The notes beneath the pieces are model-generated. The model had not been told where the DNA came from. It saw only the letters and a program-made list of their open reading frames with translations, and searched no databases. A DNA stretch of 64,000 nucleotides, from positions 49,732,581 through 49,796,580 of the forward strand of contig OX442314.1 of NCBI GenBank assembly GCA_949358305.1, read 5' to 3'. The number at the start of each line of letters is the position of its first letter. The first letter of the stretch is position 1. Below, piece by piece: positions 29,409 through 36,371 of the stretch. The position numbers and the translations under genes were made by a program. The DNA is from Strigamia acuminata (taxonomy: Eukaryota > Arthropoda > Chilopoda > Geophilomorpha > Linotaeniidae).

Positions 29409-29809
29409 TTTATTTCACTGTTAAACTGTTTTACATGCATTAATGTTTTCTTTAAAGTTCGTTCTTGTCTGTAATTTTTCGTACTATGTCAATTTAGAAT
29501 GCCGTGATTGGCTAGGCCGTTTGAAGTGCTTTCATATTATTTAAGGCTATTTGGATAATTTGTATCGATAAATTCTTGCTCTATGGGTCCTCAAGAGTGA
29601 TTTGCCGACTCTGGTCAAGTTTTTATTTCAATTTAGAATTATATTTTGTATTTGCCAGTGTTAGGCATATTAAGCAAACAGTGCTTGTCCTACGGGACTC
29701 TGTTTGGCCGAGCATTGTATATTTCTCACTTTTTATTCATACATTTTGTGTTCCTTACTTTTTCAACAGTGTAATTTTGTATCACTCATGGCACGAGCAA
29801 TTGTTGTGG
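29409..29809. other. Spacer between R1c and the gene-capture element
   Basis: No feature recognised. The 80-codon frame at 29576-29818 is low complexity and hydrophobic and is not supported. Confidence 0.4.
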
Positions 29810-29819
29810 CCCAGGTAGC

Positions 29820-30585
29820 ACAGATGATCGAATCTACATAGAATCTATATCGACCGCACTGTGTTGAATCTGCATAGACCGGTTGATGTAGATGCGATGT
29901 TAAATCTATGTCAATGTTCTATCCCAATTTAATTTAACATAGATTTAACATAGACTGCTCTATGTTGAATCAACATAGAGCGATTGATGTTGAATCTGTG
30001 TCGACCGCTCTTTGTTGAATCTGCATAGGTCTGTTGATATCGATGCGATGTTAAATCTATGTCACAGTTCTATCCCAATTTAATTTTAACATGAATTTAA
30101 CATAGACCGCTCTATGTTGAATCAACATAGACCGATTTATGTTGAATTAACATAGAAGGCTCTGTGTTGAATCTACGTAGACCGTTAATGTCGATGCAAT
30201 GCTAAATCTACGTCTCTGTTCTATCCCAAAATAAATTTAACATGGATTTAACATAGACCGCTCTATGTTGAATCAACATAGATCGATTTATGTTGAATTA
30301 ACATAGACCGCTCTGTGTTGAATCTATGTAGACTGTTAATGTCGATGCGATGTTAAATCTATGTCACAGTTCTAGCCCAATTTAATTTTAACATAGATTT
30401 AACATAGACCGCTCTATGCTGAATCAACAGAGAGCGATTGATGTTGAATTAACATAGACCGCTCTGTGTTGAATCTGTGTAGACCGTTAATGTGGATGCG
30501 ATGTTAAATCTATGTCAACATTATATCCCAAAATAAATTTAACATAGATTCAACACTGTGTTGAATCAATAGAGACCGACGGTGA
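29820..30585. repeat. Left subterminal tandem array, about 151-bp unit, 5 copies
   Basis: The landmark GATGCGATGTTAAATCTATG recurs at 29891, 30042, 30193, 30343 and 30495 (steps 151, 151, 150, 152). Within units, CTCTATGTTGAATCAACATAG motifs are themselves palindromic. Confidence 0.93.
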
Positions 30586-30879
30586 CTTGGAGTTGATTTA
30601 ATTGTTTATTCAAGAAATGCTCGTTTGAAGTTGTATATTTTCACTTTCAAATATAATTTTGATAAGTTTGACAACTGCAGTCATTTACTATCATCACATT
30701 TACACATAAAAAGCTGAAATAAAAGTAATACTATAATTTAATTTATGGGTTTTATTTAAAATGAAAAGAAAATTTTATGTTTTACATTTTTTGAATTGAA
30801 AAATAAAATACAACGTAATAAAAAATTGAGATTTTGTTAGCTCGATATTTTTAAAAGAAATATTAAAATGAGATTTTTA

Positions 30880-31996
30880 CATTTCACTGTATGACGACAA
30901 GTCAATTTCATCGGGCAAAACGCTGATATCAACTTTAAATCGGCTTTGAACACCATTTAAAATTTTAGCATCGTCTTCGAGACTGACGAACGAAATCGCC
31001 AAACCATTGGTCCCAAACCGAGCCCCATGCGTAACTGTGTAAATACGTGTTCGAATTCTCCGGCATATCGTAATTAAAAACAACATTAACTCTCTCGATA
31101 TCCATCCCACGTCCGAACAAATTCGTCACGACTAAAATCCGCTTTTGAAATTTTTTGAATGCCAATCGCCGAGAAATTCTGCTCCGTCAACAACCGAACC
31201 AAAGCCACACAGCGCTGCACCGATTTAACAAATATACCGTAACAACCTGATTAAACTCCAAAACATCCAACAAGTCCAACAATCTCCGGTTCTTGTCGCT
31301 GCTCTTCAACTTGACCTAATGCTGTTTCGATCCTTGCAGTCAACTTGGCTTCGTTATCCACGTAAATCTCCACCGGATTCACCATAAACCGCCTACAAAC
31401 CGGACGAATCTTTTTGCTCAAAGTCGCACTGAACATCATCATTGTTTATCGTGTTGGGTGCTCCAAAGTATCGTATGCACGTCTTGTCTCATGTCCAATT
31501 GCTCCAACATCTTATCGCATTTGTTTAATGTGTGACAGATCAAGCAACTTGTTTCGCACATAAGCTAAAATTCGTCCAGGAGTCCCGACCACGATGTGCG
31601 GATGATTCGCCTTGATGGCTTTTTCGTTGATTGTGATGTTCTAACCACCGAAGAATACTGCCACGTTAACAGCGGGCAGGTACTTTAAATATCGTTCGTA
31701 TTCTTTGCTGATTTGGAAAGCGAGTTCCCGAGTGTGGCACATGACCAATACGAATACGTGGCCATCGACGGCGACGAGTTGTTGAAATGTGGTCAATACG
31801 AACACGGTCGTTTTGCCCAAGCCCGATTTGGCTTGAGGATTGCTTGCGGAATACATTCGTGTTGCACTTCGGACGGGATGTTCGAATCGAATCCACAGTC
31901 GATAATCGCGCGCAGCAATTCGGGTTTGAGTAAGAAATCGCGGAATGCAGAACTGTGGACTGATGTGTACGAACCTTTCACTTCTTTCGTATTTTT
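30880..31996 (-). pseudogene. UAP56: UAP56/Sub2 (DDX39) DEAD-box helicase pseudogene
   Basis: Read on the minus strand from about 31990 to 30880, the pieces collectively follow UAP56/Sub2, the RNA helicase of mRNA export and splicing. The N-terminal K-G-S-Y...F-R-D-F-L-L-K-P-E block, motif [42 protein letters not shown] and the C-terminal [10 protein letters not shown] are all recognisable. The gene is dead: stops at about 31645 and 31520, several frameshifts, a deletion that removes most of the DEAD-box core (only C-D-K-M-L-E-Q-L-D remains), about 20 residues lost before the R-I-L-V-V-T block, and a scrambled H-R-V-A-R-A-G motif. No intron interrupts the coding pieces, unlike the GCN2 fragment nearby. 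Confidence 0.93.
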
Positions 31997-32259
31997 GACG
32001 AAAAATTGAGAAATAAATCACTACAAATAACGAAATAAAGAAATAATGTCCTACCGTCAACAATGTATACAAATCTATAAGCACGAGTCGGGCGATTGTA
32101 GAGAAGAAATTCGAATGCACTCGTGAATAAAAAATGACAATGCTTTTGTAAAAAAGACTGAAATATCAAGAGGAACGACCAAACACGATGAAATATTTAT
32201 ATTTTACATACGAGTTAAGTAATAACAAAAAAAAAACATAAAACGATGATTTTAAATAC

Positions 32260-32450
32260 TTAATTTAAATTTTGGAGTAAAGACAAGTCGAGGTGCTTGT
32301 TCATGTGATTTTCTTCAATCTTAAGCGAGCACACGGGGCAGGACTGGGATGAAGACCGATCGTTCGTTTGGTTATTATGAGAAATTTCAGCGAATTCGTC
32401 TTCGGAACTGTGGATTTTCTTTTCGATAGAAGGATTTCGTGTTTTTATGT
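32260..32450 (-). pseudogene. UBZ4-type zinc-finger gene fragment (C-terminal end)
   Basis: The minus frame ends with S-C-P-V-C-S-L-K-I and H-M-N-K-H-L-D followed within ten residues by a stop. C-P-V-C...I-N-x-H-L-D-x-C is the ubiquitin-binding UBZ4 finger of RAD18, SPRTN, SNM1A and WRNIP1. The fourth ligand (Cys after H-L-D) is replaced by Ser, so the finger is probably broken. A position right at the C-terminus recalls SPRTN, but the parent gene cannot be fixed. The N-terminal part of the frame (to 32532) is just the antisense of the RRM fragment. Confidence 0.6.
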
Positions 32451-32560
32451 TTGCGATTTTTACAAAGATGGAATCGGGATCGTCGAATTTCTGCGTTACG
32501 AAGACACAAAGAATGCGCTGAAAGTTGGACAATTCGAAGTTCCAATCGCACGAGGTGGGT
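32436..32560 (+). pseudogene. SR-factor (SRSF1/SF2-like) RRM fragment
   Basis: The frame around 32449 reads V-C-D-F-Y-K-D-G-I-G-I-V-E-F-L-R-Y-E-D-T-K-N-A, matching the second RRM of SF2/ASF-type splicing factors (pattern C-Y-A-D-V-Y-x-D-G-x-G-V-V-E-F-x-x-x-E-D-M). It starts and ends abruptly; the end (CGAG-GTGGGT) may be an old splice donor, with a TTTTTTCCCTAG acceptor at about 32629. No second RRM half is seen. Confidence 0.6.
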
Positions 32561-32910
32561 TGTTGTTTGTATTAATTTTAATTGCGTAGTTTCGTGTTTT
32601 TATTGATTTTATTTGGGTTTTTTCCCTAGTTGCAGCAGTTTACCTCCGGTAAGATTCTGCGCCAAACGAAGAGCGGATGGCCGAAAGGAGTGAAGAGGGG
32701 ATCGCCTCAAGCGAAACGAAAGCGAGGACAGCAACGACGAGGAAGAGGAGAAATTGAGGAGAACGAATAGAACTCAACGAACAACCACGTTAATTTCGAC
32801 GTTGAGGAGTCTAATGTGGAGCGAGGAGACGAAATGATTATTATTAATTAAATTACGTATTTTATTTCACATTTGAACACGAGATAAGGACATTGCATTG
32901 TTGAATGTGT

Positions 32911-33378
32911 CATCAGTACAGTCAATCGAGACTTCAAAATGAATTCGAGGTGTTGAAATAGCTCGGCAAAGGTGGTTTCGGTGATATGTTAAAAGTGTGT
33001 AATAAACTCGATGGAAGAGTGTAGCTATAAAGAGAATCGTGTTTAACCAACATAATAAACTGTTGAATAAGAAAATAACTCGAGAAGTGAAATTTTTATC
33101 GTGACTCAATCATGAAAATGTCGTTGGATAAATAAAAAAAATTAAAAAAATCGAAGAAAGAGGAATTTTAATTCGGTTTTTGCAGATATTTCTGCTTGTG
33201 GATCGAAACTGTGTTGGTTGATAATGCGGACGAAATGACATCGTCAGACACTCCGACGTCCGAAACTACATCGTCGGACATTCGGACGTCCAAAACGACA
33301 TCGTCGGACACTCCGACGTTCGAAACGACATCGTCGGACACTCCGACGTCTGAAACGACTGAAACGAGCGTCGTTTGA
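32911..33378 (+). pseudogene. GCN2: GCN2 (eIF2-alpha kinase) N-lobe fragment with retained intron
   Basis: From 32911 the plus strand reads S-R-L-Q-N-E-F-E-V-L-K, a TAG, then the Gly-rich loop L-G-K-G-G-F-G, N-K-L-D-G, a frameshift, A-I-K-R-I with the ATP-binding Lys, R-E-V-K-F-L-S, a TGA, and L-N-H-E-N-V-V-G. This order is specific to the GCN2 kinase domain. A 58-nt intron (33128-33185) follows, with a good TTTTTGCAG acceptor but an ATAAAT donor where GTAAAT is expected. The phase then continues into Y-F-C-L-W-I-E and a Thr/Ser/Asp repeat, matching the variable insert of GCN2 kinases. Two stops, a frameshift and a mutated donor make it a pseudogene, derived from genomic DNA because it kept the intron. 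Confidence 0.88.
33238..33357 (+). repeat. 30-bp coding minisatellite inside the GCN2 fragment
   Basis: Four units of about 30 bp beginning ACATCGTCGGACACTCCGAC encode T-S-S-D-T-P-T-S-E-T. Units differ by a few bases, one with F for S and one with I-R for T-P. Confidence 0.9.
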
Positions 33379-33625
33379 TGCTGTTACAGCATTCGAGCGG
33401 ATACCGATGGATGTTTGCTTAAGTAATACGAAGATTCCAGTTTTAAGTCTGAGAAATATGGATTGGAAATCCAACGGCGATAATTTATTTTCCGCCTAAA
33501 ATCATCGAGAGTCGATTCTCGATCGCTTCCGTTCTCTCCGTCACTGATCCCTCTCAATTGTGACGTCATCGTAACGTCATTGGGCACACGTGATTTTTCG
33601 AAGAACCGGCAGAATCAAAGTCACG

Positions 33626-33647
33626 ACACACACACACACACACACAC
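33626..33647. repeat. (AC)n microsatellite
   Basis: Eleven perfect AC units. Confidence 0.95.
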
Positions 33648-33783
33648 GTGGCAAAGGTTTTGAAGATTTGCATCGGCAGTGTACACAGATTTGAATCGTT
33701 AAAATATTTATAATTGTAATTGTAATTCAATTTGTATACTTATTTTTATTTTTTTTCAAATATTTTTTTTGATTTTGCTAGGA

Positions 33784-33845
33784 TTTTTGCAGTTAGGCCT
33801 AATTTTTAGCAACGCATGATTAAAAGTTAGGCCTAACTGCAAAAA
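33784..33845. repeat. Hairpin with 19-bp perfect arms
   Basis: TTTTTGCAGTTAGGCCTAA at 33784-33802 is inverted at 33827-33845 around a 24-bp spacer. It sits between two captured fragments and may be a tiny inserted element or a capture junction. Confidence 0.85.
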
Positions 33846-33924
33846 CCGACTCGTACGTCAAATACACATTCATGTCGCACCCGAACCACCACGAAAACGA
33901 ATTTAAATCCGAAAGCCAGCTTTG

Positions 33925-34314
33925 AAAGCTTCAACTTCAACGACTTCCATCCGTTGATCAGCGTTCTCAGCGACGGAATAGTTCTCGGAGGACGGAAGGA
34001 CTTTCAAAGCGGCGAATTACAAGATTACGAAACGGTAAAACAATAAAACAATACAACGGAACGTTTTGATTTCGATTGATTTCGATTTTCTAGGTTGTTT
34101 GGACGACGTGCGCTTCGATCGCATTACGCAGCACCTGCCGATACCACCGGTCGAAAACAGATCCGATTATCCCGAAGTGTTCAACTTCGCACGTCGAGTC
34201 CGGCTGCGATCCGAAGGCCAAGTGGCCGGACATATACTGCAAACACCTCTAATTAAACCACGATTGCAGGAGCAACGCGGGCTTCGTGACGAACTGAATG
34301 GGGCTGTGCGGTTC
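33925..34314 (+). pseudogene. Laminin-G-like domain fragment (cadherin-type), two exons
   Basis: Frame 33925-34034 ends S-D-G-I-V-L-G-G-R-K-D-F...D-Y-E-T. A GTAAAA donor at 34035 and TTTTCTAG acceptor ending 34093 bound a 59-nt intron, and the next exon reads G-C-L-D-D-V-R-F with P-I-P-P-V-E-N further on. The G-G-x-P-D and G-C-L-D-D-V-R pattern is typical of LamG domains in large cadherins. Splicing as written is out of phase by one base, so a single-base loss at the donor (GGG to GG) is likely. Only about 120 residues are recognisable. Confidence 0.5.
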
Positions 34315-34384
34315 TGAAGCGACCAGCGAACCCGAGTCCAAAAAATATACAAGTTTTTGATCAAAAATTGTATTTTTGATCAGC

Positions 34385-34800
34385 GACGATGAAGATCTGG
34401 GCAACGGATTCCCATTCCGTTCGTGCTGGATCCGTATACGAACGAAACCATCGCCAACACCTTCCAGATTCAGAACGAACACGTCCGAACCGCTTCGCGT
34501 ACGTCAAACGCCAACAGACCCGCATGCTGGATGTAAGTTTTGCGCTTTCGTCAAACACAACTGCGGATTTCCATGCGGAGTAAGAAAAAATAAAATGATT
34601 AGACATCCATTTTAAAATAATAATAAAATAAATTTTCTTTTAGATGTACGATCTGTAAAATCCAGCAAAAGTATCGAGCATGAAAACCGATTGCACCCAA
34701 CCCAAAAACGCCTGCCAAGAAAACCAAATCATCCAGTCGTGCAACAATGGAACAATGGAGGACGTGAAAAAAATCGTTGCATCGCATTTCATTTTATTAC
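34385..34800 (+). pseudogene. Unrecognised two-exon gene fragment
   Basis: The first exon's two overlapping frames read as protein (an early L-D-P-Y-T-N-E-T-I-A-N frame, then R-F-A-Y-V-K-R-Q-Q-T-R-M-L-D), suggesting one frameshift near 34480. A canonical GTAAGT donor at 34533 and CTTTTAG acceptor ending 34643 bound a 111-nt intron. The next exon continues in phase (M-Y-D-L), meets a TAA, and stays open for about 50 more codons with several Cys. Clearly coding-derived, but I do not recognise the protein. Confidence 0.5.
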
Positions 34801-34884
34801 TTGTTTTTGTAAAATATTGTTTTTATCTTTTGAAAAAATAAAAAATTTTAAATTTTAATATTTTGTTTTTTTATACACAACTAC

Positions 34885-35318
34885 GAATATGACGTAGAGT
34901 TTGACGTAGAATTCGACGTAGAATTCGACGTCGATTTGATGTTGTTTTGAAGTAGCATTGATCTACAGCTCTATGTCCATTCTATGTCAAAAACGTGACC
35001 AAAATGCGCTAATTCCATGTCAATGCTATGTTGTTTCGGCATAGTTTCATCCTTATTGTACGTTAAATAGACGTAGAATTCTACATAGAATTCTACGTAG
35101 AATTCGACGTAGAATTCTACGTCGATTTGACGTTGTATTGATGTAGCATCGATCTACAGTTCTATGTTGATGCTATGTCAAAATCGTGACGGAAATGCGC
35201 TAATTCCATGTCAATGCTATGTAGTTTCGGCATAGTTTCAACCTTAATCTATGTTAAATCTATGTACCAAGATAGACGATCGGTATAGATTTAACATAGA
35301 TTCAACATAGTTTTGTTA
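34885..35318. repeat. Right subterminal tandem array, about 191-bp unit, 2 copies
   Basis: TCGATTTGA landmarks at 34931 and 35122 start two copies of a 191-bp unit. Short GACGTAGAATTC repeats separate them, and the right end shares ACATAGATTTAACATAG motifs with the left array. Confidence 0.88.
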
Positions 35319-35349
35319 CTTGGGGGACGTGTTCATGTATTGTTGTAAA

Positions 35350-35696: not shown

Positions 35697-36371
35697 TGTC
35701 ACGGGCAGGTTACCCACCCTTCTTTTTTGTTTATTTCCCACTTGGTTTGATCCATCTTTAGTTTTATTATTTATCCCACTTTATCTTCTCATCTAAAACC
35801 GATGATTCACCTTCTTAAATGTATGCGCCGATTCACGTCGCGCATTTCATTATTTATAACAATCAGACTTAGTTTATACCTTTCACCCCCTCACCCACTT
35901 ACCTAGACCCGATCATATGACTCAAGTTTACCTCGTCACTGTTTTCCATCTAACAATCACTTCTCATGCTTTTCTCGACAGAGACACATCTCTAGAGAGA
36001 GCTGGGAATGTCACTATTATTTAAACATCGCGTCTTCAACAGCGCACCTCCATTTTAATCGTAATAGCGCCGCTTTTTGCCCACCTTTTAATTCGCATGC
36101 CTGTGACATTTCTCGCCCACCTGCTTGATAATTTCTCAGTGCATACTCATTCTTTTTTAAATGTAAAGACCCACAAAGTGAGATTGAGCCCGTCGAATAC
36201 AAATAATGGTGTTACAGCGAGTTTAGGTTTACTTCCCGCCCGATGTCCATATCTGACGGCGGCACCAAACGAGTAAATCTACGAACGAGCCCACTGGTTT
36301 GCGCTACATTTCCCATGCGCGCAAATTCAGATCAAATCAACCAATACATCTGGGTTGATTCGTAACAAACA
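35697..36371 (+). repeat. 5' LTR of the 12.2-kb element
   Basis: 675 bp, TGTCACGG...AACAAACA, no difference seen from the 3' LTR. A 61-codon minus frame inside both LTRs is not a gene. Confidence 0.95.

Follow-up and report, generated by a model that had tools for sequence, protein, structure and literature searches.

A multicopy inverted-repeat transposon family of Strigamia acuminata carrying DNA captured from many host loci

Positions 29810–35324 of the stretch analysed here, 64,000 nucleotides of Strigamia acuminata (Chilopoda; contig OX442314.1, positions 49,732,581 to 49,796,580; the whole stretch is called the window), are one copy, of about 5.5 kb, of a multi-copy transposon family. 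The element is mobile and two-ended, its interior was captured at the DNA level from many loci, and parts have been swapped between its copies. All 19 of the two-ended copies with flanks read keep the ends CCCAGGTAGCAC...TTGTTACTTGGG exactly, and 3,441 of the 4,309 bases (80%) of the interior of the window copy (30576–34884) were traced to six host loci. Taken together, the data are best explained, with a probability of roughly 0.8, by a transposon family that is mobilized in trans, has acquired host DNA by successive template-switch captures and has diversified into mosaic subfamilies.

The genome under search (G000; its contigs are given as C1, C3 and so on) amounts to 237.5 Mb, and the window was placed on contig C1. 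The limits that had been drawn from the window alone in the initial annotation proved to be exact, as the fullest family alignments start at 29809/29810 and typically end at 35324, and the element is flanked by a duplicated GG. Its ends (CCCA..TGGG; in short form CCCAGGTA/CCCAAGTA across the family) had been described as imperfect terminal inverted repeats next to subterminal tandem arrays, and both descriptions hold: nine of the first 11 bases match, and the gapped alignment of the 47-bp ends scores 16.5, a value reached by none of 2000 shuffles (in an ungapped comparison only 15 of the 47 positions match). The outer parts of the element are organized as follows.

29808–29809, no strand: left target-site duplication, GG, from flank reading
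29810–29850, plus strand: left terminal inverted repeat, CCCAGGTAGCACAGATGATCGAATC...; its first 24 bases occur exactly at 22 places and with at most two mismatches at 25
29852–30555, plus strand: left subterminal array, 151-bp unit repeated 4.7 times, with internal inverted repeats
34904–35259, plus strand: right subterminal array, 191-bp unit repeated 1.9 times
35278–35324, minus strand: right terminal inverted repeat, reading inward CCCAAGTAACAAAACTATGTTGAATC
35325–35326, no strand: right target-site duplication, GG, from flank reading

Both flanks were read for 19 of the 20 two-ended copies, the right flank of the copy at C3:12.3 Mb being left out. An identical dinucleotide borders the element in 18 of the 19, where swapped flanks would give 1.94 and no more than 10 were reached in 200,000 shuffles. 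The duplicated dinucleotides include GG, GC, AA, TA, AT, GT, TT, CT, AG and TG; duplications of 3–7 bp are absent from all 19 copies, nor does any longer one, up to 9 bp, appear copy by copy. Pack-MULEs make target duplications of about 9 bp, and Helitrons make none, lack inverted repeats and end in 5'-TC and 3'-CTRR. The doubt expressed in the initial annotation as to a Pack-MULE or a Helitron was thus justified, the 2-bp duplication fitting neither and the CCCA..TGGG ends not being those of a Helitron.

The left-end search gave 132 matches, with all 29 candidates scored, and the right-end search 100 matches, with the best 40 of 42 candidates scored. By pattern scan, three of the 25 left ends carry one or two mismatches of 24, and six further places have three, five of which, on reading, proved to be a small relative; right ends with at most two mismatches number 38, as counted by reading the list. 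Pairing by coordinates yielded 20 two-ended copies, one copy split by 128 kb, four left-only copies (one truncated where its contig ends) and 17 right-only copies (one likewise at a contig edge), so that the two ends recur together elsewhere in the genome, as the initial annotation had proposed to check. Two remnants stand outside these counts, one at C1:35.2 Mb with eroded ends and one at C6:2.47 Mb, a right end without its last bases. The copies laid out measure 5.0–20.2 kb, or about 5.0–6.5 kb without large insertions. Those fetched whole among the larger ones (C1:26.3, 32.6, 35.2, 38.7 and 60.9 Mb; C3:4.58 and 4.95 Mb; the interiors at C12:9.1 and C3:12.3 Mb were left out) contain unrelated, retroelement-like insertions with long open frames, and were rejected as autonomous relatives, the extra 3.5–14 kb having, by eye from the open reading frames, the look of nested retroelements.

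Other repeats lie close to some copies. On visual inspection, an LTR-like sequence is found 370 bp to the right of the element (window 35697–36367; it starts with TGTCACGGGC and ends with CGTAACA), and each half of the split copy at C3:1.28–1.41 Mb has a similar one at its inner edge. A satellite with a unit of roughly 140–147 bp extends from G000:C5:12090028 and from C3:15637477 onward, a 22-base piece of it having 44,728 matches with at most three mismatches; two family copies (C65 and the right-only copy at C5:12.09 Mb) appear by eye to lie in it or at its edge.

Between the two arrays, the window copy holds the following pieces, the percentages being identities with the parental or nearest locus.

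30576–31989, minus strand: UAP56/DDX39 piece, broken into short frames; 86% to an intact intronless gene at G000:C3:16216412–16217874
32222–32427, minus strand: zinc-finger (UBZ4-like) piece; 91–93% to C5:15332024, its main part 93% to six other places
32447–32706, plus strand: SRSF1 RRM2-like piece with intron; 92% to C6:2706590, second part 83%
32841–33269, plus strand: GCN2-like kinase exon with flanking sequence; parent C1:11015154, 90%
33231–33373, plus strand: tandem array with a 30-bp unit, which expanded from the GCN2 piece at its end
33463–33739, no strand: piece of an unnamed locus; parent C1:37072965–37073232, 91–92%
33842–34310, plus strand: two pieces of a cadherin gene with laminin-G, intron retained; parent C8:2776744–2777481
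34381–34510, plus strand: cadherin repeat of the same C8 gene; C8:2773842, 92%, nearly 3 kb upstream in the parent
34575–34750, plus strand: further piece of the same C8 cadherin gene, out of parental order; C8:2776397, 83%

The parents lie at separate loci, with identities of 83–93%, introns included: on C3, on C6, on C8, at two C1 places 26 Mb apart and at a multicopy locus on C5 and elsewhere. The initial annotation's statement that the fragments come from unrelated loci and stand in mixed orientation is therefore borne out, and the mapping to parental genes that it had suggested is now available for about 80% of the interior. Since the genome search scored the best 40 of 79 candidates, it may have missed parents for the remaining 20%. 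That the region is a decayed host gene cluster rather than a transposon, the case that collinear fragments at one locus would have indicated, can be given next to no credence and is already refuted: no piece in the window copy encodes an intact protein, as such decay would lead one to expect, but the parents form no single cluster in this genome, and identical ends with 2-bp duplications are found at many unrelated sites.

The names first given to the pieces need some adjustment. UAP56/Sub2 stands as UAP56/DDX39, with Pfam DEAD and Helicase_C matches on the pieces and with a parental locus, but the nearest source is the intronless gene. The latter (C3:16.216 Mb) is a single exon with a 444-codon frame from stop to stop, whose best solved relative is DDX39B (E 2.9e-219). 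An intron-bearing paralogue at C3:32.00 Mb is 79–83% identical in pieces, with three of its introns, by eye, exactly absent from the captured copy; the intronless gene is the better parent. The UBZ4 assignment is weak, since zf_UBZ reaches only E 0.003 on the parent, which falls short of the curated cut-off and ranks after a different weak match, and no match is listed for the window piece itself. The SR-type RRM is recovered weakly as SRSF1 RRM2-like (best E 0.011), with no Pfam match. For the kinase piece the best solved relatives are eIF2-alpha kinase 1 (6.6e-17) and GCN2 (1.1e-15), so that an eIF2-alpha kinase is confirmed, the name GCN2 being preferred because a second kinase-like exon is seen by eye just upstream in the parent. 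The gene first left without a name now has a parental locus at C1:37.07 Mb. Finally, the laminin-G domain (Pfam E 2.7e-14) is real but does not represent a gene of its own, as it belongs to the C8 gene that gave four pieces; the parental gene additionally contains EGF, and a cadherin repeat (E 2.5e-10) comes from it as well, a combination that we take to be a classical cadherin of the invertebrate type. In the laminin-G pieces 255 bp of the parent are missing at 33922/33924, so that the four pieces are both permuted in order and internally deleted with respect to the parental gene. As a separate observation, positions 803–1014 of the SRSF1-like locus (L051) are an insertion that has inverted repeats at its ends (CGGTAGAATGACGG...) and GAGATT on its flanks.

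The introns retained in the SRSF1 and cadherin pieces imply capture from DNA. Capture from spliced RNA was considered on two grounds and rejected. The first, the absence of the three introns of the C3:32.00-Mb paralogue from the UAP56 piece, falls with the finding that the nearer parent is itself intronless and intact; the second, a gap of about 820 bp in a RIOK1 piece of B-type copies, ends, by eye, at a position that is not a splice site. RIOK1 intron sequence in subfamily E also speaks against it, as do the introns of the SRSF1 and cadherin pieces.

Five subfamilies, A (the window copy and those at C1:60.9 and C12:9.1 Mb), B, C, D and E, were grouped by shared blocks and compared by means of one copy each. 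The sister subfamilies carry further captures: the RIOK1 piece (solved relative RIO1, E 6.3e-21) from C3:14.00 Mb, at 93–94% and with the intron sequence kept in E; pieces from C1:11.745 Mb (96%) and from C5:15.349 Mb, also C1:60.93 Mb (82%); and weaker ones from C10:5.18 Mb (79–86%) and C3:30.08 Mb (77%). From base 2818 of C to the end, a stretch of 2,738 bp, the identity between C and D is 100.0%, and it is 98.0% over the preceding 588 bp, while further to the left their content differs, with 87–95% identity where they can be aligned. C is B-type up to base 2822 (97.4%) and 93–94% identical to B from there on. The last 2,497 bp of E are 99.0% identical to C and D, and its bases 1657–2784 consist of A-type blocks (the SRSF1, GCN2, C1:37 and cadherin pieces) at 90–91%. 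From these alignments, the subfamilies are mosaics that have exchanged parts.

Away from contig edges, 16 right ends lack a left end, compared with three left-only ends. By shared marks, 12 of the 16 form one lineage (F); of the other four, two are of subfamily A and two of the C/D/E type, the left end having been replaced in one of the latter. Lineage F (L061–L066, L077, L078, L080–L083) has an exact right terminus ...TTACTTGGG, a length of 43–438 bp and a variable left cut; neither a left end nor a full-length member was found in it. Its target duplications do not exceed chance (a match of at least 4 in 2/12, against 10% of swapped controls; mean 2.6 versus 2.1), and the similarity between flanks is slightly above the swapped controls in direct and about equal in inverted orientation, with an 8-bp direct repeat nine bases from the junction at C11:4.47 Mb and GTGG on both sides at C4:17.2 Mb. 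The last 60 bases of the left flank hold a strong inverted repeat, capable in principle of folding back, in four of the 12 copies (scores 9.5–15.5), scores of at least 8 being found in none of the 12 right flanks and in 4% of shuffled left flanks, in a test devised after seeing the sequences, on a small sample that, being one lineage, may reflect one unusual source. The pattern looks like the repair of a broken end on one side. The family might also insert with a single precise end, its right end being fused to arbitrary host DNA, as a transposition-coupled route of capture. This is improbable in our estimate; if true, a left end acquired later would enclose the host stretch, by a mechanism distinct from gap filling. 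A short GGTTA-type repeat, presumably akin to the arthropod telomere repeat, was noticed inside one right-only copy (L081, G000:C3:31823572).

The existence of a lineage with only one precise end, along with the several captures per element known for Helitrons according to the available part of PMC6431247, would also suit a Helitron or Helentron capturing genes by rolling-circle replication. Such an origin is nevertheless very improbable, and already refuted for the two-ended copies by the inverted repeats at both ends and the duplications next to them.

The element works like a Pack-TIR, that is, with terminal inverted repeats, a target duplication of fixed length (2 bp) and an interior from identifiable host loci. 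The claim that it has no transposase agrees with the scan of nine of the 62 listed open reading frames of the window, in which no transposase domain was found, nor was one found in six scanned frames of two sister subfamilies (15 frames in all). An autonomous relative was not met among the 31 left-end-like places with at most three mismatches of 24, which comprise the 25 family ends and the five small relatives (C4:1674765 was left out).

CACTA elements have long subterminal repeat arrays, as does the present element, and the 2-bp duplication agrees with their 2–3 bp, so that a Pack-CACTA-like (CMC) element moved by an EnSpm/CACTA-type transposase comes to mind. In the available part of PMC12730594, duplications of 2–5 bp are given for the CMCT clade, but with ends 5'-CA..TG-3' in most cases rather than CCCA..TGGG. 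Eight matches to the transposase family PF02992 are present in the genome, but none of the eight lies inside a listed copy; of two surroundings read, one has ends CGGCGATAAAAG but showed no duplication, and in the other no repeat stands out clearly. We regard this origin as unlikely. Somewhat less likely still is a PHIS (ISL2EU-type) element moved by a DDE_Tnp_4 transposase. Duplications of 0, 2 or 3 bp are given for Harbinger relatives (PMC12730594, same part), and DDE_Tnp_4 matches with E ≤ 1e-6 number 92 genome-wide, many of them open; however, the five such loci read have no CCCA-type terminal inverted repeat, apart from a lone TACTTGGG in L101.

Two other repeats were noted in this context. 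Five places (L086–L088, L055, L056; e.g. G000:C3:34177956) hold a short element, roughly 110 bp long, whose ends, CCCCAGTAGCACAGATGATCG...GTTACTTGGG, are almost those of the family; one of the five (L088) has a 2-bp AT duplication, the right end being less clear in the other four. Another family, starting with CCCAGGTAAAAAAAATCTGCAG and ending with CTCCTGGG or CTCCTAGG, occurs at 30 places, three of which were read (L089–L091); both copies with two visible ends have 2-bp duplications, and it may depend on the same transposase group.

As to the mechanism, a cut-and-paste (DDE-type) transposase acting in trans would move the element. Captures, several in succession rather than one, would arise by template switching during the repair of gaps or of stalled forks within the repeat-rich element, the template being either host DNA or a sister copy. 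The permuted and internally deleted cadherin pieces are the pattern expected from such switching, which would also account for the exchanged halves and the tandem growth. A model of this kind (FoSTeST) was put forward for the origin of multicopy cases, with the repetitive ends of the fly element FB4 as a place of fork stalling, in the available sections of the survey by Tan et al. (2021, PMC8277862).

Several observations weigh against this reading. No transposase is tied to these ends among the loci examined; the 12 right ends of lineage F are not explained by plain cut-and-paste; and the two-ended copy at C6:14.9 Mb has no matching duplication (AT/TA). About 20% of the interior has no assigned parent among the best 40 of 79 candidates scored, most neighbouring blocks are divided by filler also without one, and for the zinc-finger piece there are seven similar places, any of which might be the parent. 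The nearest SRSF1 locus (C6:2.707 Mb) is decayed, and because of its frameshift and insertion it may be a sister copy rather than the source. The first 898 bp of E are nearer C (94.1%) and B (93.0%) than A (91.4%), making E a mosaic of more than two parts.

With the parents of about 80% of the window-copy interior still present, it is possible to read off directly where the captures came from, how they are ordered and where they are joined. Within one genome the family documents multiple captures, amplification and the swapping of parts, and the exchanged halves bear on capture itself, since the process by which one copy is joined to another could equally link a copy with a host gene. Shuffling of genes to such a degree is, to our knowledge, known mainly from plants. 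No description of such a family was found in the literature searched, the coverage of which was partial and is no proof that it is unpublished.

Host-DNA capture by animal inverted-repeat transposons is uncommon and mostly single-copy in one broad survey, that of 100 animal reference genomes cited above, whose available sections list 370 Pack-TIR cases, 323 of them hAT or TcMariner, and only four multicopy ones in the reference genomes, none in birds or insects; Ssk-FB4, with FB4 target duplications of 9–10 bp, is an additional multicopy case from fly populations (PMC8277862). Compared with these four, the serially capturing mosaic family described here is a notable new variant of Pack-TIR. 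With plant Pack-MULEs and Pack-TYPE elements it shares gene pieces between inverted repeats and, presumably, movement in trans, and with Helitrons the capture of several gene fragments per element (PMC6431247, available part), but it differs from Pack-MULEs in having a duplication of 2 bp rather than about 9 bp and from Helitrons in having inverted repeats and a target duplication. Like the animal Pack-TIRs, it is an apparently non-autonomous inverted-repeat transposon with host gene pieces and, like the multicopy ones, has distinct target duplications; unlike the examples in those sections of PMC8277862, which have one parental sequence each, it combines six parents in one copy, 20 two-ended copies and mosaic subfamilies.

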